Assembly (NCBI GenBank): GCA_028697885.1
Contig: JAQVER010000019.1
Location: forward strand, 1-46,501
From: Desulfocapsaceae bacterium
Lineage (GTDB): Bacteria > Desulfobacterota > Desulfobulbia > Desulfobulbales > Desulfocapsaceae
Direction of reading: 5' to 3'
DNA: 46,501 bases
Of the stretch, positions 13,289 through 24,794 are shown in pieces. A program made the position numbers and the translations under genes. The notes beneath the pieces are model-generated. The model was not told the DNA's origin and ran no database searches. It saw only the letters and a list, made by a program, of their open reading frames with translations. The first letter of the stretch is position 1; every line of letters starts with the position of its first letter.

Positions 13289-14701
13289 TTACATAATCGA
13301 TTGAACTGCAGATGTGGCAAAATTAATAAAACCTTGTGGTGCTACACCCATGATCACAATAATGAGAAGTAAAATAATAGATGTCGCATTGGTAAAAATG
13401 CCACTGATCACAGGACTATTATTGTCAGGATCGCTACAGAAGGTGACACGAACCACAGATAGGTAATAAAATATTGCAATTGCCGTATTGATGGCAGCCA
13501 AGATTACCAAAATGAGATAGCCTTGTTTCAGGGCGCCTGTGAGGAGCATGAATTTACCCATGAAGCCGACAAAAGGAGGAATGCCTGCGAGGGCAAAAAG
13601 GGCCACAGCCAAGGAAAGGGCCAATAACGGCGAACGTTTATGCAGCCCACTTAAATCCTTAATCTGAACATTCTCCCCATTGTTGGAAACTGAACATATA
13701 ACTAGGAAACAGGCTAGGTTCATGACTACATAGCCCATAATATAATAAAGTGCATTGGCATAGCCACTGAGCTGGAAGGTTAAGATACCTAAGAGAACAA
13801 AACCTGCATGGGCGATGCCTGAAAATCCAAGCATGCGTTTGACATCGGTCTGCACTAGGGCTGAGAGATTCCCATAAAACATGGAAAGAACAGCGCATAC
13901 CATCAGGATATTGACAATGACCTGCCCTTCACCGTTAACCATACTTACAATTCTAATCAGCAGAGCAACTGCTGCCAGTTTAGGGACAGAGGCTATAAAG
14001 GCAGTCGTCTCGTTGGATGCGCCTTCATAGACATCTGGCACCCAAAAATGAAAAGGAAAGAGGGCAAGTTTGTAGAAAAATCCTGCCAGTACCATCATTA
14101 TTGCAATAATAGCTGCTGGCTGATTATACATAGAAGAAAGTTTTTCCATTACTACCGCAAGTTGAGTTGATCCAGTTAGACCAAACATATAACTCATACC
14201 AAAGAGCATGAAACCGGTTGCTGTGACACCAAAAAGCAGATATTTGATGCCCGCTTCCATCTGAAACCGGTAGTTTCCGGAGTCATCACGCATAGGAACC
14301 ATGATATAGACGGCAAAGGATGAGAGCTCTAGGGCCACAAAAATAGCCAGCAACTCCACGCTCGAGACCAGCATCATGAGGCCGAGGACACTTACAAAAA
14401 GAAAAAGATAGTACTCTGGATGGACAGAGTTTTTTATATCTTTCAGTTTCCGTCCCAAAATAAGGACAACGAACATTGCACCGGCAATCAAGCACTTAAA
14501 AACCTGCGAGTAAAGGTCTATCTTGTATGAGTCATAAAAGAGGCTCCCATGTGCTTTAAAACTTACAAGCGTAGCTGCAAAGACTGCTGCCCCCAGGCAA
14601 ATGGCAACACTTTTTATTTTGTCGGCGTCAGTCTTTCCAAGACTGACCAGGAAAATGACAAGACCCGCTCCCAACAGTGTTAATTCAGGTAGAAATTGCA
14701 T
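13289..14701 (-). CDS. nuoN: Complex I subunit NuoN
   Basis: A 470-residue multi-helix membrane protein of the complex I / Mrp antiporter family. It shows the conserved Glu in IFVALELSSFAVYI (helix 5 region), the FHFWVPDVYEGA block and the Lys in ASVPKLAAVALL, residues of the proton path. The N terminus MQFLPELTLLGAGL and the length are usual for NuoN. Last gene of the operon, 32 bases after nuoM, with the bidirectional terminator downstream. Confidence 0.93.
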   Translation of the reverse strand: MQFLPELTLLGAGLVIFLVSLGKTDADKIKSVAICLGAAVFAATLVSFKAHGSLFYDSYKIDLYSQVFKCLIAGAMFVVLILGRKLKDIKNSVHPEYYLFLFVSVLGLMMLVSSVELLAIFVALELSSFAVYIMVPMRDDSGNYRFQMEAGIKYLLFGVTATGFMLFGMSYMFGLTGSTQLAVVMEKLSSMYNQPAAIIAIMMVLAGFFYKLALFPFHFWVPDVYEGASNETTAFIASVPKLAAVALLIRIVSMVNGEGQVIVNILMVCAVLSMFYGNLSALVQTDVKRMLGFSGIAHAGFVLLGILTFQLSGYANALYYIMGYVVMNLACFLVICSVSNNGENVQIKDLSGLHKRSPLLALSLAVALFALAGIPPFVGFMGKFMLLTGALKQGYLILVILAAINTAIAIFYYLSVVRVTFCSDPDNNSPVISGIFTNATSIILLLIIVIMGVAPQGFINFATSAVQSIM

Positions 14702-14733: not shown

Positions 14734-16260
14734 TTAATGAAGAATTAATTCTGCGGCAGCAACTGCCTGACCCTGATGCGCATGAAACTGATCAAGGAGA
14801 TTTACAACACTGATGTGCATAAGATCAATGAAAGGTTGAGGTCCAAGACCGATCCAGAAGACTAAAAAGAGAAACGGACATAACGTTATAATCTCACGTA
14901 AATTTAGGTCATTCAGCCATGATTGATCAGGATTATCTGTCCCCCCCCATACTATCTTCTGAAGCATTCGCAGCATGTAGGCTGCGGCAAGAACTGCACC
15001 TGGAATTGCCGCCAGTGCCAAGGGAATACTGTGTTTGAAGGTCCCAGCTAAAATCATAAACTCACCAACAAAACTGTTGGTTCCAGGGAAACCAAAAGAT
15101 GAGAGGGAAAAAAAGGTAAGAAAAGTGACATAGATCGGCATGTACTTGCCAACTCCAGTGGCGGAACGCAGTTCACGACTGTGAGTTCGCTCATAAATCA
15201 TACCGACACATAGGAACAAAGCGCCAGTGGTAATACCGTGGTTAATCATCTGCAGGATGGAACCTTCCATTCCTGCGATGTTCAGTACAAAAATGCCCAA
15301 GGTGACAAAGCCCATATGGCCAACAGAGGAATAGGCAATCAGTTTTTTCATGTCCTGTTGGGCCAGTGCGGTAAATCCTCCATAGATGATACCGGCAATG
15401 GAAAGCCAGAGGACATACGGCATGAGCAATGTTGTTGCCTCGGGTGTTATGGGTAAGGCAAATCGAAGGAAACCATATGTCCCCATTTTCAGGAGAACTG
15501 ATGCCAATATAACAGAACCGGCCGTCGGTGCTTCAACATGTGCTGCTGGCAACCATGTATGGAATGGGAACATGGGAACCTTGATGGCAAAAGCCAGGAA
15601 GAAGGCAAGAAAAAGATAGATCTGGGCAGTGAGTGAATAATTCTGCCACATCATATCCGGGATAAAAAATGAATAGTTATTGGTTTTATAGAGCCAGATG
15701 ATTGCCACCAGCAGCATGATTGAGCCGGCCAAGGTGTAGAGGAAAAATTTTATGGATGCATAAATCTTCCTTGGTCCACCCCAGATGCCGATCAGCATGT
15801 ACATGGGAATCAGCATGGCCTCCCAGAGGATATAAAACAGGACAAAATCCAAGGCCATAAAGACCCCGAGCATAGCCGTTTCCATGATTAGCAGGCAAAT
15901 CATGAAAGGTTGCACGCGGGTTTTGATGTAACTCCAGGATGCCAGAACACAAAGGGGCATGATCATGGTAGTCAGCATCACCAGCAAGATAGATATACCA
16001 TCCACACCAATTACATACTGGATATTAAGTGAAGATACCCAGTTGTACTGCTCTACGAATTGAAATTTTGCTGAACTGGTGTCAAAGGCGCTGACAAGCG
16101 GAATAGAGAGTATGGCTGTTAGTGCAGTTATACCAAGCGCCCAGTAGCGGGCAAAAAACTCGTTTTTCACAAAGAGCAGCAATAAGGCCCCTACAAGAGG
16201 CAAAAAAATAAGGGTGCTCAGAATATGTGGATAATTTGGATTAATAAGTAGTTGATCCAT
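14734..16260 (-). CDS. nuoM: Complex I subunit NuoM
   Basis: A 508-residue proton-translocating subunit with about 14 membrane helices. Conserved features include the Glu in FYILWEAMLIPMYMLIGIWGG and the PFHTWLPAAHVEAPTAGSV block followed by LLKMGTYG, in which the Lys belongs to the proton channel. Length matches NuoM. It lies 26 bases after the NuoL-like gene and 32 before nuoN. Confidence 0.95.
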   Translation of the reverse strand: MDQLLINPNYPHILSTLIFLPLVGALLLLFVKNEFFARYWALGITALTAILSIPLVSAFDTSSAKFQFVEQYNWVSSLNIQYVIGVDGISILLVMLTTMIMPLCVLASWSYIKTRVQPFMICLLIMETAMLGVFMALDFVLFYILWEAMLIPMYMLIGIWGGPRKIYASIKFFLYTLAGSIMLLVAIIWLYKTNNYSFFIPDMMWQNYSLTAQIYLFLAFFLAFAIKVPMFPFHTWLPAAHVEAPTAGSVILASVLLKMGTYGFLRFALPITPEATTLLMPYVLWLSIAGIIYGGFTALAQQDMKKLIAYSSVGHMGFVTLGIFVLNIAGMEGSILQMINHGITTGALFLCVGMIYERTHSRELRSATGVGKYMPIYVTFLTFFSLSSFGFPGTNSFVGEFMILAGTFKHSIPLALAAIPGAVLAAAYMLRMLQKIVWGGTDNPDQSWLNDLNLREIITLCPFLFLVFWIGLGPQPFIDLMHISVVNLLDQFHAHQGQAVAAAELILH

Positions 16261-16286: not shown

Positions 16287-18074
16287 TTATAGCCAGACGT
16301 AAGCTACAAGAATAACGGCGGCAAATGTAACCGTATAATATATTGTCTGCTGAATCTGACCGCGTTGGAGAACCAGACTGACTCGCCGACCAATGGCACG
16401 TACACAACGGGCCGTTCCATCAACCACGCCGTCAATTCCATTCCAGTCAAACCATGACCAGAATTGTGAAGTAGTCATCAGGCTGTTTAAACCGACAACT
16501 CTATATGCCTTACTGAATGCAGTATCAAACCACTGTAGGGGATTGGTTACTGTCCATAGAAAACATTGTCCACCTTTCCGGTAGAACCAATCCAAGTCCA
16601 GACTGATGGTTTCTCTGGCTGTAATGTATTTGCGCAGTAAAAAGAAGCCCAAGGCAGTAAGTGCAAGAATTTGCAAAGTTTCGCTCAGATGATAGGCTCC
16701 ATATGGATGATAGGCAACTTCAGTGTTGGGAAGCATTCCATAGAGAAAGGGAAGATAAGAACCGATGAAGATGCATAAAAATCCAGCGACTGCCATGGCA
16801 AGTTGCATATTCCATGGTGGATCCTCAGCTTTTTCCCAGGTCTCAGCGCTGCATCTATTCTCACTGAAAAAGAGAAGATAAGGAAGTCTTAGCCCTGCAA
16901 CCAGAAAGGTTCCGGCTGAAACTACGGTAAGAAGAAAACCGGCCCAGAGGATGTGTGATTCGAAGCTGGCACTGATGATCATTGACTTGGAGACAAATCC
17001 GGACAGAAAGGGGAAGGCGGAAACAGATATTCCCCCAATGACTAGAAATATAAAGGTGGCAGGCATTTTTTTATAGAGCCCGCCCAGTTCGGTAAATTTC
17101 GATTTACCTGTGGAATGAATGACTGCACCTGCTGCCATAAAGAGCAGCCCTTTATACAGAATATGAGCGAAGGCATGGGCACAGGTACCATTAATGGCAA
17201 GTGCCGTACCGATACCCACGCCTGTTACCATATATCCAACCTGAGAGATAATCTCCCAGCCCAGAAGCTTTCGGACATCATTTTCCATGATAGCGTAAAT
17301 AATGCCGTATATGGCCATGACAACCCCAAGCACAATAAGCACATCAAATCCGGCACAGCTTCTTGCCAAGGTGTAGATGGCCGTCTTTGTTGTGAAGGCA
17401 CACATGAAAACGGAACCGGTAACGGTAGCCTTACTATAGGCATCTGGTAACCAGGAGTGGAGCGGAGGAACAGCAGCGTTCAGCATCAGGCCAATCATGA
17501 TAAGCCATGTATATATTTCGGGATTCTGAACATTCAACTGAACAAAGGAAAGATCACCGGTAGCCTGATATCTGAGGACAAAGCCCAGCAGTAGGATAAC
17601 CCCACCAAATGTATGGACGAGAATATATCGATACCCTGCCGCTAGTGATTCAGGATCCTTTTTGAACCAGATAAGGAAGGTGGAGGCAAAGGCCATCATC
17701 TCCCAGAAAAGGAACAACACTAAAAAATCGCCACAGTAGATGACACCCAGTGACCCTGCAACATAAAACCAGGCCGCTATATGCTGCCATTCATCTTCAA
17801 CATGCATGCCATAAATGGTGCCGATAATGGCCATCAGTGACATGATAAAACCAAAAATCATGGAAAGGCGGTCAACCCGGCCAAAGGTGACCTCCCAGTC
17901 AAGAAATTGGAGCACACCATAGGTGCCGGGATGCTGGCTCAAATAGAGCACATCCAGAAAGGTCAATAATGGAATCAGAAAGAGATAGGGCTTTCTGAAG
18001 GGTCCTCTGACCAAGGGCAGAAGAAGTGCTCCTATGATCATGATGAGGGCAGGATGGAAAAAATTAGTTGTCAT
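16287..18074 (-). CDS. NuoL-like proton-pumping subunit
   Basis: A 595-residue membrane protein of the NuoL/MrpA/MrpD family. The Glu in LFLFWEMMAFAS and the Lys in PPLHSWLPDAYSKATVTGS...TTKTAIY mark a pump module. After about residue 430 a long C-terminal extension ends in RGQIQQTIYYTVTFAAVILVAY, matching the lateral-helix and final-helix region of NuoL, so this is the best candidate for the NuoL role. It is diverged in its N-terminal region. The start overlaps the end of the 83-residue gene by 11 bases, suggesting coupled translation. Exact subunit orthology needs a tree. Confidence 0.85.
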   Translation of the reverse strand: MTTNFFHPALIMIIGALLLPLVRGPFRKPYLFLIPLLTFLDVLYLSQHPGTYGVLQFLDWEVTFGRVDRLSMIFGFIMSLMAIIGTIYGMHVEDEWQHIAAWFYVAGSLGVIYCGDFLVLFLFWEMMAFASTFLIWFKKDPESLAAGYRYILVHTFGGVILLLGFVLRYQATGDLSFVQLNVQNPEIYTWLIMIGLMLNAAVPPLHSWLPDAYSKATVTGSVFMCAFTTKTAIYTLARSCAGFDVLIVLGVVMAIYGIIYAIMENDVRKLLGWEIISQVGYMVTGVGIGTALAINGTCAHAFAHILYKGLLFMAAGAVIHSTGKSKFTELGGLYKKMPATFIFLVIGGISVSAFPFLSGFVSKSMIISASFESHILWAGFLLTVVSAGTFLVAGLRLPYLLFFSENRCSAETWEKAEDPPWNMQLAMAVAGFLCIFIGSYLPFLYGMLPNTEVAYHPYGAYHLSETLQILALTALGFFLLRKYITARETISLDLDWFYRKGGQCFLWTVTNPLQWFDTAFSKAYRVVGLNSLMTTSQFWSWFDWNGIDGVVDGTARCVRAIGRRVSLVLQRGQIQQTIYYTVTFAAVILVAYVWL

Positions 18075-18315
18075 AATAATCCTCCCGGGTCATGATTCCG
18101 CTTCTACCGAGTACCCTTGCCACCATAATGACGACTGCACATGATCCCAGGCCAAAGAGTGACCAGAAACCTGGTATCATCTTTTCGGCCCATGTGTGCG
18201 CATGACTGGTATCAACTGTCAGGCTCCAGATTACTATGAGGGCGATACCACCATAGCAGCAATATTTAACCGTTTCTAAACGGTCTCGTAGATAATCGAT
18301 AAAATTGACAATCAT
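18064..18315 (-). CDS. Small two-helix membrane protein within the nuo operon
   Basis: An 83-residue protein not recognised as any standard complex I subunit. Two hydrophobic segments are visible (about residues 18-33 and 50-66); the first follows a charged N-terminal helix (YLRDRLETVKYC). Its start overlaps the stop of the MrpD-like gene by 4 bases and its end overlaps the NuoL-like start by 11 bases, so it is translated in lockstep with two pump subunits. This strongly suggests a real gene, perhaps an accessory subunit joining the pump modules; similar short integral proteins occur in Mrp operons (MrpF, MrpG). Function is not known. Confidence 0.75.
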   Translation of the reverse strand: MIVNFIDYLRDRLETVKYCCYGGIALIVIWSLTVDTSHAHTWAEKMIPGFWSLFGLGSCAVVIMVARVLGRSGIMTREDYYDN

Positions 18316-19793
18316 CCTGTCACCACCTTAACAAATTGCATCATAAAGTTTGGAAAGATACCAAGAAGGACAGAGACTGTACATGCTATAAGAATGGGAA
18401 TCAGCATGGACAATGGCGCCTCTTTAATACCTTGAAACGTTTCACCTTCAGGGCGTTTGCCAAAAAAGGCCTTAATGGTAATGGGTGCGAAATATCCGAC
18501 ATTGAGCATGGTACTGGCGATAAGAATGAGCAGTATCCCCATTTGGTGAGCTTGAATTGATCCCACCAGTAGATTCCACTTGGTGACAAAGCCGCCAACA
18601 GGTGGGGCTCCAATCATGGAGAGTGAAGCGATGGCAAAGGCTCCAAAGGTAAAGGGCATTGTTTTACCCAGACCTCCCATATCCGAAATATCTTTTTTAT
18701 GGGCGGCAATATAAATAGCGCCTGCGCAAAAGAAGAGGGTGATCTTGGCAAAGGCATGGTTGACGATATGGATCAGACCACCATCTATGCCTGCCGGCGT
18801 GAGGAGTGCTACACCCATGATGATATAAGAGAGCTGGCTGATAGTTGAATAGGCCAGACGCTCTTTAAGATTGTTTTTGGATAGCGCAAGAACGGATGCC
18901 ATGATCACGGTAAATCCGACAAAGTAGGCAGTAGGAATTCCAAGATTCAAGGCATGCATGGTATCTACGCCGAAGACGTAAAGCATGACCCGAGTGGTGC
19001 AAAAGACACCAACCTTAACAACGGCCACTGCGTGAAGCAGTGCGGAAACGGGAGTAGGTGCGACCATGGCCCCTGGTAGCCAGTGATGAAAAGGCATGAT
19101 GCCGTTTTTGGCAAAACCAAAGAGACAGAAAATATAGAGCATGATAACCAGGCCGTGGTTAACATCTGGCGGGAAGATACCCGTTGATATATTTGGAGCA
19201 AAATCAAGGGTTCCTGTCAGAACATAGATCAGAATCAGGGCGGGTAACAGAAATGCTTTGGCAGTGGTTGTCAGATAAACAATGTATTTACGGGCGCCAT
19301 TGTATCCTTCGGTGTCTTGGTGATGGGCAACCAGTGGATATGTGCAAATCGATACGATCTCATAAAAGAGATAAAGAGTAAAAAGGTTGTCAGAGAAAGC
19401 AACCCCGATTGCTCCAAATATTGCCAAGGCAAAACAGGCATTGAATCTGGTCTGTGCAGGTTCGTTGTGAGCCCTCATATATCCCAGAGAGTAGAAGACA
19501 GCGATAGTCCACAGTGATGATGCTACCAGAGCGAAAATCATAGACATGGCATCCGCCCGAAGAGTGACAGTAACTCCTGGAAGAATACTGAACATGTGGA
19601 AAATCAGAGTCTTCCCTGAAAGTACTGTCGGAATCATTGAAGCGACAAGTAAAAACAGGATGATTGAGGCAACAGATGAAACACCTTCTCTGATGTTTTC
19701 ATTTTTGCCCATAAACATGACACCCAGAGTACCAACGAGCGGCACGAGGAGCGTTATGAGAAGTTTAGCGGAACTGACCGTTGTTATATCCAT
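18312..19793 (-). CDS. MrpD-like antiporter subunit of the complex I-like operon
   Basis: A 493-residue membrane protein of the Mrp antiporter D / NuoL/M/N family. The Glu in LYLFYEIVSICTYPLVAHH and the block MPFHHWLPGAMVAPTPVSALLHAVAVVKVG with its Lys are the proton-path residues. It lacks the long C-terminal lateral helix of NuoL and resembles MrpD proteins. The operon thus holds four pump-type proteins instead of the three of E. coli. It follows nuoK by 17 bases and overlaps the next gene by 4. It may add a further ion-translocating unit. Confidence 0.88.
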   Translation of the reverse strand: MDITTVSSAKLLITLLVPLVGTLGVMFMGKNENIREGVSSVASIILFLLVASMIPTVLSGKTLIFHMFSILPGVTVTLRADAMSMIFALVASSLWTIAVFYSLGYMRAHNEPAQTRFNACFALAIFGAIGVAFSDNLFTLYLFYEIVSICTYPLVAHHQDTEGYNGARKYIVYLTTTAKAFLLPALILIYVLTGTLDFAPNISTGIFPPDVNHGLVIMLYIFCLFGFAKNGIMPFHHWLPGAMVAPTPVSALLHAVAVVKVGVFCTTRVMLYVFGVDTMHALNLGIPTAYFVGFTVIMASVLALSKNNLKERLAYSTISQLSYIIMGVALLTPAGIDGGLIHIVNHAFAKITLFFCAGAIYIAAHKKDISDMGGLGKTMPFTFGAFAIASLSMIGAPPVGGFVTKWNLLVGSIQAHQMGILLILIASTMLNVGYFAPITIKAFFGKRPEGETFQGIKEAPLSMLIPILIACTVSVLLGIFPNFMMQFVKVVTG

Positions 19794-19810: not shown

Positions 19811-20137
19811 CTAACCGTTAAGTTCGACCAGATCTTCAGTGTCGACTGATTTATAGTTACGATATACTGCAATAATTATACTGAGACCGATAGCCGCTTC
19901 AGCTGCGGCTATGGCCATAATAAACAGGGTGAAAACTTGTCCCACTGTGGGGTCGGGTGCTGTAAACCTGTTAAAAGCCATAAAATTAATGGAGGCTGAT
20001 GCCAGTATCAGTTCAGAGGAGATCAGCATCCCGATGAGGGTTCGACGGGTCACAATTCCATAGACCCCCAAACCAAACAACATGGCTGCAAGATACAGAA
20101 AGGTGTTGAGATTGTTGTAGAGAGTAAGTAGGGACAT
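19811..20137 (-). CDS. nuoK: Complex I subunit NuoK
   Basis: A 108-residue three-helix membrane subunit. Two conserved glutamates in membrane helices are visible: the one in SSELILASASINFMAFNR and the one in AIAAAEAAIGLSIII, both needed for proton coupling in the family. Its ATG shares one base with the nuoJ stop. Length is usual for NuoK (about 100). Confidence 0.95.
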   Translation of the reverse strand: MSLLTLYNNLNTFLYLAAMLFGLGVYGIVTRRTLIGMLISSELILASASINFMAFNRFTAPDPTVGQVFTLFIMAIAAAEAAIGLSIIIAVYRNYKSVDTEDLVELNG

Positions 20138-20685
20138 TATTTGTTCCTCCCGGCGCGGGCTATAACCAGTGCTCCAATGATCGCAATAAGCAGGACAATG
20201 GATATGAGTTCAAAGACCATGGAATAACTGGTTAGAAATTGAATCCCCAGTTCTTTTACTGTTCCGCCATTAACCTTAGGAAGGGAGGTGAACTTTGTTC
20301 GCATTGCCATCACGATTAAACCGTAGGTGACAAGACCGGCGGTAATAAATCCCAGGGGACCAGAGAGTGGACCAGCTGGTCCGTTCTTTTTACTTTCCTC
20401 TGGGGCGGCGAGCATGATAGCGAACGCAATGGTGATACAGACAGCACCCACATAGATGAGCATCTGCATTAATGCGACAAAGGGTGAATTGAGGAAGTAA
20501 TACAGGGCAGCCACGCCGATAAAACAGACAATGAGACCTGCTACCGCGCGTACCAGTCTTTCTGCAGAACAGGCTATGATCCCCCCAATAATGGTTACTG
20601 CCATCATTATGAGAAAAATCACACCAGTCAGCCCATCAGCGGTGAATAGGCCAGGCGCTTCTGTTATGGCCATGGAAGGGTTCAT
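20137..20685 (-). CDS. nuoJ: Complex I subunit NuoJ
   Basis: A 182-residue membrane subunit with five hydrophobic helices. The Tyr/Gly-rich block with LMQMLIYVGAVCITIAFAIML in the third helix is the conserved pi-bulge segment of NuoJ. The start overlaps nuoI by 4 bases and the stop shares a base with nuoK, so I, J and K are translationally coupled. Confidence 0.94.
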   Translation of the reverse strand: MNPSMAITEAPGLFTADGLTGVIFLIMMAVTIIGGIIACSAERLVRAVAGLIVCFIGVAALYYFLNSPFVALMQMLIYVGAVCITIAFAIMLAAPEESKKNGPAGPLSGPLGFITAGLVTYGLIVMAMRTKFTSLPKVNGGTVKELGIQFLTSYSMVFELISIVLLIAIIGALVIARAGRNK

Positions 20686-21140
20686 GCGTTTCTCTCCTCC
20701 AACCGTTTAAGAAGATTAAAGTGGAAATCTTCCTTGCGAGTAGACGCAAGATTATATTCTTTTGAAAATTCTAATGCCCCAAAATTGCAATTTTCAACAC
20801 ATTGTCCACACAGTGAACATTTGGTGAAATCAAGCTCGTACTTACTTAAGATTTTTTTCTTCTTAACCTTGCCGTCAACCTCAACCTCAACTGAGGTTGA
20901 ACCAAGGGTTATACAACCTGAGGGACAGGCTCGCTCGCACATCCCGCAGACGACACACTTTGGTTTACCTTCTGCATCGGCAATGAGTTCGATGTGTCCA
21001 CGAAACCGAGCAGACATTTTGATAGTCTGATAGGGATATTGAACAGTTACCGTAGGTTTGAAAAATTCCCGGAAGGTAATACCCATTCCAACGAGCAGAC
21101 TTTTACTACCATATAATATTTCGCTAAAATATCCGCCCAT
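20682..21140 (-). CDS. nuoI: Complex I iron-sulfur subunit NuoI
   Basis: A 152-residue ferredoxin-like subunit carrying clusters N6a and N6b. Cys 62, 65, 68, 72 (CVVCGMCERACPSGC) and Cys 108, 111, 114, 118 (CSLCGQCVENC) bind two [4Fe-4S] clusters. RFRGHIEL before the first motif is typical of NuoI. Without NuoG and NuoF this is the outermost iron-sulfur subunit encoded here and so the likely docking site for the unknown electron donor. One base separates it from nuoH. Confidence 0.95.
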   Translation of the reverse strand: MGGYFSEILYGSKSLLVGMGITFREFFKPTVTVQYPYQTIKMSARFRGHIELIADAEGKPKCVVCGMCERACPSGCITLGSTSVEVEVDGKVKKKKILSKYELDFTKCSLCGQCVENCNFGALEFSKEYNLASTRKEDFHFNLLKRLEERNA

Positions 21141-21141
21141 A

Positions 21142-22128
21142 TTAGAACACCTTCAGTAATCCTGCCGTGAGAAGCAGGTTGAACAGAGATATAGGAATAA
21201 GTATTTTCCAGGACAGATTAAGTAGTCCATAGATTGTTGTTCGTGGAAAGGTCCAGCGAATCCAAATAAAAGTGGCAATCAGCAGATAAATTTTAAGCAG
21301 GAACCACCATACGCCTGGAAACATACCAAAAGGACAATCCCATCCCCCAAGGAAAAGAATTGTTGTCAGGCTGGCGCCAATAACAATATTTGCATATTCC
21401 CCCATGAAGAAGAGCCCAAAACCCATACTGCCGTACTCTGTGTGGAATCCGGCTACAAGCTCACTCTCGGCTTCTCCAAGATCAAAGGGGGCGCGATTTG
21501 TTTCTGCCAGTGAACAGATAAAAAATATGATAAAGGAAATGGGCATTAATGGACTGTGCAGGGAGGGAAAAATGTTCCAGTGCCAAAAGCCACCGGACTG
21601 TGCCATGCTGATCGCTTTAAGATCCATTGACCCAGTTGTCATGACCACGGTGATAGCCGTGATCAGCATGGGAATCTCATAGGAGACATTCTGTGATACT
21701 GCCCTGACCGATGCCATGACTGAATATTTGTTGCGTGAACCCCAGCCGGCAAAAAGAATAGCCATGGCTCCCATGGAGGCAAAAGCGAAAATTACAAGGA
21801 CTCCAAGCTCCATGTTATGGGCGGCAATTCCTGCACTGAAGGGGATGGTGACAAAACTCATTATGGCTGGTGCCATGGCCAGCACTGGGGCAACCATAAA
21901 CAGGATTTTATCAGCACCGCCTGGGATCATTAACTGTTTTGTCATCAGCTTTATGCCGTCAAGAGGTGGCTGCAGAAGGCCGAAAGGTCCATTGATGTTT
22001 GGACCTGGACGGCGCTGAATGCGGGCTGCTCCTCTGCGCTCAGCCCAGACCAGATAGGCGGCATTGACAGCGGCAAAGGCGATAGCTATCACCACAGCAA
22101 CTATGACATTTAATAATGTTAAACTCAT
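21142..22128 (-). CDS. nuoH: Complex I quinone-site membrane subunit NuoH
   Basis: A 328-residue membrane subunit that forms the quinone chamber with NuoB and NuoD. QRRPGPNINGPFGLLQPPLDG and AEAESELVAGFHTEYG (acidic loop motifs) are diagnostic, as is FIWIRWTFPR. The length is usual. It lies 74 bases after nuoD. The quinone is expected to be menaquinone, in line with the menG/ubiE gene elsewhere in the window; that link is inference. Confidence 0.96.
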   Translation of the reverse strand: MSLTLLNVIVAVVIAIAFAAVNAAYLVWAERRGAARIQRRPGPNINGPFGLLQPPLDGIKLMTKQLMIPGGADKILFMVAPVLAMAPAIMSFVTIPFSAGIAAHNMELGVLVIFAFASMGAMAILFAGWGSRNKYSVMASVRAVSQNVSYEIPMLITAITVVMTTGSMDLKAISMAQSGGFWHWNIFPSLHSPLMPISFIIFFICSLAETNRAPFDLGEAESELVAGFHTEYGSMGFGLFFMGEYANIVIGASLTTILFLGGWDCPFGMFPGVWWFLLKIYLLIATFIWIRWTFPRTTIYGLLNLSWKILIPISLFNLLLTAGLLKVF

Positions 22129-22202: not shown

Positions 22203-23321
22203 TTACCTGTCAATTTCTGGTATTACGAGGTCCAGACTTCCCATAAATGCTAGCGCATCCATTATTAACATCCCTTCACATGCTTCATCAAAGAGGTGCA
22301 TATTTGAATATGTTGGTGACCGTAGTTTTAGACGGTAGGCATTTTTATCACCATCACTGACTATTCTGATGCCAAAACTACCACGTGCGGTCTCTACTGC
22401 CTGATAGTAATCTCCGACTGGAAGTTTGATGGTTTTCGGTTTTTTCTCAGCCATGAAGGGACCGTCGGGTAATTTTTCCAATCCCTGTTCAATGATTCGC
22501 AGTGATTGTTCCATTTCGTCCATGCGTACCCTATAACGAGCCAGAGAATCACATTCATGATAGACCGGGATATCAAAGTCGAATTCCGGATAGACAGAAT
22601 ATGGCTCATTTTTACGGACATCAAAGTTGATTCCTGATCCTCTGGCCACTGGCCCAGTTGCCCCGTACTTCCGGCACATCTCAGCAGAAACAGGAGCTAT
22701 TCCTTCCAGTCGTTTACGGAAGATGATGTTCCCCGTCACCAATGCGTCGTATTTTTTAAGTGATTTGCGCATCCGCGGGATAAAACGTTTTGCTGCCTCA
22801 ATGAAATTATCGTCCACATCATTGTAGAGACCACCAAAACGGTAATAACAATAGGTTAAACGGGCTCCGGTTACTGCTTCCAGCATATCAAGGATATGCT
22901 CACGATCCTGGATAGCGTACATAAGTGGACTGAATCCACCTAGGTCCATGACAAAGGCTCCGAACCAGAAGAGATGTGATGCCACACGATTAAGTTCAAC
23001 GGTGATGGCTCTGATATATTCGGCACGTTCAGGTACCTCAATTCCAGCCGCACGCTCTATAGCCAGGACGTGTCCATGGGTATAACCCAAAGCTCCAAGG
23101 TAGTCCAACCGACTTAAATTTGGTAGAAATTGGGCGTACGTCCTGTTTTCTCCCATTTTTTCGTGCATGCGATGGACATAGCCAAGGACGGTTTCAGACT
23201 TGACAATATATTCACCATCCATTTGCATTTTGACCCTGAGAACGCCGTGGGTTGCTGGATGCTGTGGTCCTACATTCAGGATGAATGTTTCGTCCGGTCG
23301 GAGTTGAATTGGAGCGCTCAT
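22203..23321 (-). CDS. nuoD: Complex I 49-kDa-type subunit NuoD
   Basis: A 372-residue hydrogenase-like subunit of the peripheral arm that helps form the quinone site. NVGPQHPATHGVLR (about residues 16-29) is the family signature; the metal-site cysteines of hydrogenases are absent, as in true NuoD. It ends with GSLDLVIPEIDR, the usual C terminus. It is a separate gene from nuoC, unlike the fused nuoCD of E. coli, and overlaps nuoC by 4 bases. Confidence 0.96.
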   Translation of the reverse strand: MSAPIQLRPDETFILNVGPQHPATHGVLRVKMQMDGEYIVKSETVLGYVHRMHEKMGENRTYAQFLPNLSRLDYLGALGYTHGHVLAIERAAGIEVPERAEYIRAITVELNRVASHLFWFGAFVMDLGGFSPLMYAIQDREHILDMLEAVTGARLTYCYYRFGGLYNDVDDNFIEAAKRFIPRMRKSLKKYDALVTGNIIFRKRLEGIAPVSAEMCRKYGATGPVARGSGINFDVRKNEPYSVYPEFDFDIPVYHECDSLARYRVRMDEMEQSLRIIEQGLEKLPDGPFMAEKKPKTIKLPVGDYYQAVETARGSFGIRIVSDGDKNAYRLKLRSPTYSNMHLFDEACEGMLIMDALAFMGSLDLVIPEIDR

Positions 23322-23806
23322 GCCTTGAAATCCTTTAAGAGTGGATGAAAATCTGCATCTTCAGGAAGGAGCAGGGGAACGAGGTGAGGGTGGCCCGCAA
23401 ATTTGATGCCAAAAAAATCATGGGTCTCACGCTCATGCCAGTTTGCTCCGGCGTATATTTTCGTGATAGAAGGCACTTCAGGTTTTTCACGAGGTATTCT
23501 GGTGCGGATAACGACTCGACAGGCGTCAAAGTCGTAGCGGGAAAAGTCATAAATAACTTCCATCTGCTTTTCTTTGATCCAGTCTACACCGGTGATACTT
23601 TCAATAAAAAATTCAGCCTGGTCAAGAACGGTAACCGCTGCAAGAAGTTGATCTGCGTCAACCTGAGCGTCAAGATGATATCCATGGGTTTTGTAATCAC
23701 GAGTGAGAACACCATTGGCTCTGGGGGTATCAGGCTCAGCTCCATCTGCAGGAACAGATCCGGCAAAGAGTGCTTGCAGTGCTTGTTGTGTTGTTTCTAA
23801 TATCAT
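23318..23806 (-). CDS. nuoC: Complex I 30-kDa-type subunit NuoC
   Basis: A 162-residue peripheral-arm subunit. The block ANWHERETHDFFGIKFAGHP followed by LLLPEDADFHPLLKDF is the NuoC signature. It is 80 bases downstream of nuoB and overlaps nuoD by 4 bases. Size matches the C domain of unfused NuoC proteins. Confidence 0.94.
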   Translation of the reverse strand: MILETTQQALQALFAGSVPADGAEPDTPRANGVLTRDYKTHGYHLDAQVDADQLLAAVTVLDQAEFFIESITGVDWIKEKQMEVIYDFSRYDFDACRVVIRTRIPREKPEVPSITKIYAGANWHERETHDFFGIKFAGHPHLVPLLLPEDADFHPLLKDFKA

Positions 23807-23886: not shown

Positions 23887-24426
23887 TTATACAGCCTCAG
23901 GGTCTTTCCATCTCTTCCAACCGGAAATTTTATGCTCGAGCTCAATAATACCTTGCAGGAGAGCCTCGGGTCGTGGAGGACATCCGGGGACATACACATC
24001 AACAGGTAAAAACTGGTCGGCACCAAGGACAATGCCATACTGTCCTTCAAAGGCAAAAGGACCACCTGATATCGCGCAGTTGCCAAGAGCCATAACCCAC
24101 TTGGGCTCAGGCATCTGGTCGTAGAGCGTTTTGATGCCTGGTTGCATTTTTTTGGAAATGGTACCGGCCACGATCATCACATCACTTTGTCGCGGAGAAG
24201 GGCGAAAAACTTCCGCTCCAAAGCGTGACATGTCAAATCTGGCGCATCCTGTTGCCATCATTTCAATGGCGCAGCATGCCAGACCGAATGTGAGCGGCCA
24301 TAAGGAGTTTGCCCGGCCAAGATTGATCAGCTTGTCGGCGATGGCAAACTGAACGAGTGACGAAGGTACTGCTTCTACTGGTGAAGGTACGTTTTGCGTT
24401 CCCACTTGAATACTCCCTTGGTCCAT
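23887..24426 (-). CDS. nuoB: Complex I iron-sulfur subunit NuoB
   Basis: A 179-residue subunit that binds cluster N2, the last iron-sulfur centre before quinone. Ligands Cys51, Cys52 (LACCAIEM), Cys117 (LGNCAISGG) and Cys149 (PGCPPRPEA) are all present. The start used overlaps nuoA by 52 bases; a later start would shorten a poorly conserved N terminus, so the exact start is uncertain. Confidence 0.95.
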
Positions 24427-24794
24427 GCGTATACGATTGCGAGTGATAAAATTCCGACAAAGATTACAACTTCTACAAAATCCCTATAGGCAAACATCTC
24501 GTTGTTGTAAGCAAGGGCGACCGGAAAAAGAAAAAGAACATCCACATCAAAGGCAATAAAGATGAGGGCGTAAAGGAAAAAAACAACGCCATATCGGACC
24601 CAACTGTCACCAATGGGGACCATGCCGCATTCAATGGCTTGTTTGTTTTTGTTTTCGAATTGACGAGTGCCGCGTGGCATAAGGAGGTAAACAATCGCGA
24701 TGGGACCTAGGGCAAAGGCGAGACCACCCAAGGTGAAAGCCGCGATCCAGAGAACATTGTCGCGATAAAGAAATTCTGAAAATTGAAGCTCCAT
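24375..24794 (-). CDS. nuoA: Complex I subunit NuoA
   Basis: A 139-residue membrane subunit with three hydrophobic helices. [26 protein letters not shown] and [10 protein letters not shown] carry the conserved motifs (CG, RY.., FDVD/EVVFL). A GGGGGGAG ribosome-binding site sits just upstream of the ATG, and a sigma-70-like promoter lies 53-82 bases upstream. First gene of the 13-gene operon. Confidence 0.95.

Follow-up and report, generated by a model that had tools for sequence, protein, structure and literature searches.

The contig analysed here, 46,501 nt long and from a Desulfocapsaceae bacterium (hereafter the window), carries a complex I gene cluster in which an 83-codon frame lies between two pump-like genes. 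This raises the question of whether the frame is a gene, to which machine it belongs and what its product might do there.

A small gene between two antiporter-like subunits

The cluster reads along the minus strand in the order NuoA, B, C, D, H, I, J, K, D1, small protein, D2, NuoM, NuoN, with the following assignments.

24375..24794, minus strand: NuoA (Pfam Oxidored_q4, 91 bits)
23887..24426, minus strand: NuoB (Pfam Oxidored_q6, 103 bits)
23318..23806, minus strand: NuoC (Pfam Complex1_30kDa, 117 bits)
22203..23321, minus strand: NuoD (Pfam Complex1_49kDa, 298 bits)
21142..22128, minus strand: NuoH (Pfam NADHdh, 369 bits)
20682..21140, minus strand: NuoI (Pfam/NCBIfam profile search)
20137..20685, minus strand: NuoJ (Pfam Oxidored_q3)
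19811..20137, minus strand: NuoK (Pfam Oxidored_q2)
18312..19793, minus strand: D1, MrpD-like antiporter subunit, 493 aa (NF006236, PRK08375.1-1, 820 bits)
18064..18315, minus strand: small two-helix membrane protein, 83 aa, ATG start (ORF, conservation, model, dN/dS)
16287..18074, minus strand: D2, NuoL/MrpD-like distal subunit, 595 aa, with lateral helix (NF009310, PRK12668.1, 738 bits)
14734..16260, minus strand: NuoM (TIGR01972, 604 bits)
13289..14701, minus strand: NuoN (TIGR01770, 367 bits)

A sequence-only reading of the window had described the 83-residue frame as overlapping a pump gene on either side, by 4 and 11 bases. The overlaps are present exactly so, 4 bp with the upstream D1 (18312-19793) and 11 bp with the downstream D2 (16287-18074), and both neighbours are antiporter-like (Pfam Proton_antipo_M). 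Direct reading of the window sequence also revealed Shine-Dalgarno-like purine stretches immediately 5' of both the small gene and D2. The same reading took this coupling to suggest fixed stoichiometry, of which gene overlap by itself is no proof.

Two of the checks proposed along with that description, a search for the same frame at the same place in relatives and a test for purifying selection, both came out in favour of the gene. Matches to the small gene at E≤0.01 were found in 53 of 58 related genomes, those of G023 and G026 being weak and diverged (E 2.4e-6 and 1.3e-4) and that of G031 containing a stop codon; G003, G005, G010, G011 and G047 yielded no match at this threshold, the last of these having no over-cut-off D2 either. 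Across 32 named loci, D1 precedes and D2 follows the small gene wherever the contig reaches, one contig beginning at the small gene (L057) and another ending just after it (L044); Desulfocapsa and Desulfobulbaceae assemblies are among the closest relatives that bear a name. Over codons 5-79 in 26 relatives, median dN/dS was 0.127 and the maximum 0.28 (215 of 325 pairs; 35 pairs were saturated and the other 75 fell outside the dS range 0.1-1.5). Six neighbouring subunits gave values of 0.035-0.080, so that the small protein is constrained, yet less than the core. The small ORF is a genuine gene under purifying selection.

The two hydrophobic segments noticed earlier correspond to two hydrophobic helices in the AlphaFold2 model, which, like all structures used here, was predicted as a single chain (helices 2-11, 13-31, 42-46, 50-74 and 78-81; mean pLDDT 87.9). 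Lys and Arg are concentrated at both ends (means of 3.2 and 3.4, versus 1.3 in the loop), which would place both ends in the cytoplasm, and the protein is therefore probably a two-helix hairpin with both termini on that side, as judged from the charges. Among 76 sequences, Y81 is kept in 76, D79 in 69, F50 in 68, G55 in 66, E78 in 66 and Y80 in 64. The loop is rich in His, at positions 37 (42/76), 38 (46/61) and 40 (51/76), and carries Glu or Asp at position 44 in 69/76.

The earlier remark that this protein matches no standard subunit agrees with what we see, a conserved and tightly coupled membrane protein that apparently has no family name, although a missing match is no proof. The window's copy has no NCBIfam match and only a sub-threshold match to DUF2975 in Pfam, and no listed Pfam or NCBIfam family matches more than 6 of the 76 members. 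A Foldseek search of its model against the PDB returned no match at E≤0.001, a two-helix hairpin carrying little fold information. When the sequences of the PDB were searched with a profile, only light-harvesting proteins came up (E≥0.028), and these were taken as chance. The protein thus appears to belong to no consistent Pfam or NCBIfam family and to match no solved structure. The available parts of PMC9040806, PMC7415380, PMC5419562, PMC12361115, PMC5703873 and PMC7784846 hold no mention of it that we could find, and none of the papers listed in the literature searches deals with it, to judge from title or opening of the abstract; an earlier mention elsewhere is possible.

Distribution of the D1-small-D2 module

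We then considered how regularly the small gene accompanies D2 across a draw of 197 genomes of the same phylum (Desulfobacterota). Matches to the small family occur in 93 of these genomes and an over-cut-off D2 in 95. At 104 of the 108 over-cut-off D2 places a small match lies directly upstream; profile scanning of the DNA recovered the small gene at three of the other four (in G124, G097 and G239; loci L172, L173 and L195), which brings the count to 107/108, and the last place (G200:C117) starts at a contig edge. Only two small matches stand without D2. One, in G186, is at a contig edge where the start of D2 is visible, and the other, G227:C3, is false: it lies inside a 303-residue frame whose product looks like HtpX, as far as we can judge.

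For gene context we annotated 50 loci, comprising 40 from the phylum draw, 8 of 11 further stretches and 2 rhizobial plasmids; the window is counted apart from these, and the three stretches left out (L066, L068 and L070) each contain D1, the small gene and D2. All 50 loci carry D1-small-D2, 26 of them in a complex I setting (beside NuoK/NuoM) and 24 in an Mrp-type setting. In the latter, within the fetched stretches, the E, F, G, B, C and D genes come first and are followed by D1, the small gene and D2, so that the usual Mrp subunits are present beside the small protein. The tail residues D79 and Y81 are kept in both settings. The small protein is consequently not specific to complex I. The earlier idea of a new accessory subunit of this complex I type hence stands only in part: an accessory subunit is the best reading, but the module also belongs to Mrp-type antiporter operons, and the complex I type itself has already been published (see below).

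The junctions in these loci, with start codons chosen by script, are tight: that between D1 and the small gene is exactly -4 in 22/50, and the small gene overlaps D2 in 42/50. Such overlaps on both sides could be those of a translational-coupling ORF without function of its own, a notion that we find hardly credible given the constraint at the protein level and a tail conserved across 76 sequences. Adjacency of D1, the small gene and D2 can nonetheless stem from translational control instead of binding.

Beyond the phylum, the family is known from plasmids, one scan of genome contigs having given only close relatives. A plasmid protein search with the Mrp-type copy retrieved 99 records, all from Sinorhizobium, Rhizobium, Ensifer, Phyllobacterium or Pararhizobium. 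The two operons examined, on Sinorhizobium meliloti pB and on a Phyllobacterium plasmid, run J-K-D1-small-D2-M-N-A-B-C-D-E-F-G with overlaps of 4 and 8 bp, and the small protein is annotated as 'hypothetical protein' in both. Some variation in arrangement was also observed. The order is K-M-N-D1-small-D2, instead of K-D1-small-D2-M-N, in L152, L164 and L169, and an Mrp-type cluster (L166:3995-9771) contains a tandem D1-small-D2-small'-D2', in which the small gene and D2 are duplicated together. Long open frames around some matches had hinted that the small protein might be fused to D1; no such fusion is present in the DNA of the 50 loci.

The complex I type and its distal subunit

The best NCBIfam models of D1 and D2 are both named antiporter subunit D and score over their cut-offs, whereas the NuoL model TIGR01974 stays below its own for both (210.6 and 178.6 versus 407.5 bits), and the canonical NuoL profile is the best match for none of the window's ORFs. 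The cluster has one NuoM. This genome has one other over-cut-off NuoM, which is accompanied on contig C73 by a NuoL and a NuoN of its own; this second complex I, with canonical NuoL, M and N, is locus L202 (G000:C73:22000-35853), and four further antiporter-like genes are found on contig C18.

The complex I of the window is of the already known "green complex I" type, with the two MrpD-like subunits D1 and D2 replacing NuoL. Green complex I was described in rhizobia (Degli Esposti & Martinez Romero 2016) as having two MrpD-like subunits instead of NuoL (PMC9040806, PMC7415380; these and the papers below are cited from their available parts), which is what the window contains. The rhizobial operons share the order K-D1-small-D2-M-N with the window and differ in the remaining gene order. 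They also carry NuoE, F and G, while no window ORF is best matched by the profiles of these subunits, an absence only as reliable as the profiles, each built from a single rhizobial protein. In the Nitrospira 2M complex I (Chadwick 2018), a second NuoM serves as the extra pump alongside a retained NuoL (PMC9040806); according to what is available of that description, it resembles the window in its fourth pump and in a lateral-helix insertion of similar length, but the window combines a single NuoM with two MrpD-like proteins plus the small protein, and has no second NuoM beside a NuoL. Complex_I_3 of Ca. Manganitrophaceae, which has five pumps and an MrpD2 whose helix carries another insertion of 26 residues (PMC9040806), possesses, by the same partial account, an MrpD pair related to that of green complex I, as does the window. 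D2 of the window is devoid of that extra insert, its helix measuring 75 residues against 74 in the rhizobial L074 and L075, with Manganitrophaceae taken by description. Finally, Group 3-like Mrp antiporters with extra mrpD genes (PMC5703873, PMC7784846) offer an Mrp-type home to D1-small-D2, and differ from the window in having no redox module and a D2 whose C-terminus is not NuoL-like.

Two segments of D2 deserve attention.

16365..16589, minus strand: lateral helix HL of D2 (model residues 496-570), exceeding that of canonical NuoL by about 25 residues
17478..17480, minus strand: Asn codon 199 of D2, where NuoL/M/N have the TM7 lysine (alignment)

The matches listed for the D2 model in the PDB are mostly NuoL/ND5 and Mrp chains (Z 41-45). 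The model shows a single helix at 496-570, with block pLDDT of 57-76 (low to moderate), followed by the last membrane helix. The distance from VDExY to QTG is 49-50 residues in 18/20 canonical NuoL, in which both anchors were found, and the matching distance in complex I type D2 is 73-75 in 32 and 105 in one (L164) of the 33/37 that could be measured; the other four lack an anchor, and the equivalence of the start anchor between NuoL and D2 was judged by eye. In agreement with this equivalence, 75-80 residues separate the anchor from the protein end in NuoL versus 100-106 in 35/37 D2. D2 gains its 25 residues ahead of the conserved IDG (medians 27 versus 52), on its own side, with 22 and 22 residues after it. 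Since the extension is on the side of D2, it fits an inserted pump adjoining D2; going by the gene order, this pump would be D1. Two D2 proteins are longer still, with 126 and 134 residues after the anchor (L142:8304-10130 and L164:6092-7966). The fetched stretches around them show just four pump-like genes, and a five-pump reading of these loci was dropped, no second NuoM being present nearby in those stretches.

The module might alternatively be a separate antiporter merely co-transcribed with complex I, as its occurrence in Mrp-type operons and its position after NuoN, not between K and M, in 3 loci would allow. We regard this as very unlikely. The canonical NuoL profile is the best match of no ORF in the 50 annotated loci (0/50), so that a complex I with no NuoL beside the module would have no distal subunit if the module were separate. 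Moreover, complex I type D2 has, by eye, a NuoL-like C-terminus (L174 excepted) together with the extended lateral helix, which Mrp-type D2 does not have.

Unexpectedly, the TM7 position of D2 is Asn in 27/27 complex I loci, window included, and in 21/24 Mrp-type loci, with three Mrp-type D2 keeping the lysine (L064, L065 and L071). This lysine is present in D1 (51/51), in canonical NuoL (20/20) and in NuoM and NuoN of the window. D2 retains the TM5 Glu, TM8 Lys and TM12 Lys in 51/51, and D1 of the window keeps these three as well as the TM7 Lys. The TM7 lysines of MrpA and MrpD are presumably K223 and K219. Both MrpA-K223 and MrpD-K219 were reported to be extremely important for antiport (PMC5703873); on lysine mutants of E. 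coli NuoL, looked for by residue name, nothing turned up in PMC3046159. On these grounds D2 may act as a scaffold instead of a pump, the "fourth pump" then not adding a proton, although its TM8 Lys could compensate for the absent TM7 Lys. A figure of 5 protons moved, which has been suggested for such complexes (PMC9040806), may thus be an overcount, as D2 is devoid of the TM7 lysine.

A putative subunit at the D1-D2 junction

Across 21 complex I loci, with background corrected by NuoD, NuoB and NuoH, the small protein diverges more in step with D1 (partial r 0.60) and D2 (0.64) than with NuoM, N, K and J (0.33-0.41). The most likely partners of the small protein would be D1 and D2, because it accompanies both in two machines whose other subunits differ. 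With moderate confidence, we propose as its likeliest role that of a stoichiometric two-helix subunit at the junction of these two proteins. In complex I, the D1-D2 pair replaces NuoL; D1 would be inserted between NuoM and D2, which bears the long lateral helix, and the small hairpin would sit where D1 and D2 meet, joining them or stabilising the joint; contact, place and function are all deduced. This pair, accompanied by the same small protein, also belongs to Mrp-type antiporters.

Faster evolution of the small protein, of the kind met in an assembly factor or a peripheral subunit, might count against a junction subunit. An assembly factor, departing once it has helped with the insertion or pairing of D1 and D2, ranks next, as an unlikely alternative in our estimate: it would account for a small gene beside D1-D2 in two different machines and for a rate above that of the core subunits, but the conserved tail and the overlapping genes suit a lasting partner at least equally. 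We consider it quite unlikely that the small protein modulates the ion path of D1 or D2 (gating or ion choice), for instance through its His/Glu-rich loop. The loop His at 37, 38 and 40, the Glu/Asp at 44 and a D2 without TM7 lysine would be in line with such activity; however, the loop residues differ among lineages, and the small protein is still present with the lysine-keeping Mrp-type D2 of L064, L065 and L071.

Pursuing the junction subunit further, we tentatively put forward a broader reading that is possible yet rather doubtful. The small protein would be a dedicated joint that couples an extra pump to the end of the pump row, and D1-small-D2 a plug-in module of two machine classes, in which only D1 would pump and the lysine-less D2, with its long helix, would serve as cap and lever. 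As only D1 would pump within the module, green complex I would move no more protons than a normal complex despite its four pump-like subunits. 

A subunit at the D1-D2 junction, on the main reading, would be one overlooked in a respiratory enzyme of rhizobia and sulfur-cycling bacteria, and in Mrp antiporters, at the very point where the extra pump joins. The green complex I type was known already, and it is the small protein between D1 and D2 that is apparently unnamed; taken with the TM7 lysine that D2 lacks, it opens the proton count of the enlarged complexes to direct test.

One point against such a subunit comes from the trees of 51 loci: the complex I D1 fall to the same side of one branch (support 87/94), whereas D2 requires at least 3 changes between complex I and Mrp-type settings, so that the histories of D1 and D2 are not parallel.
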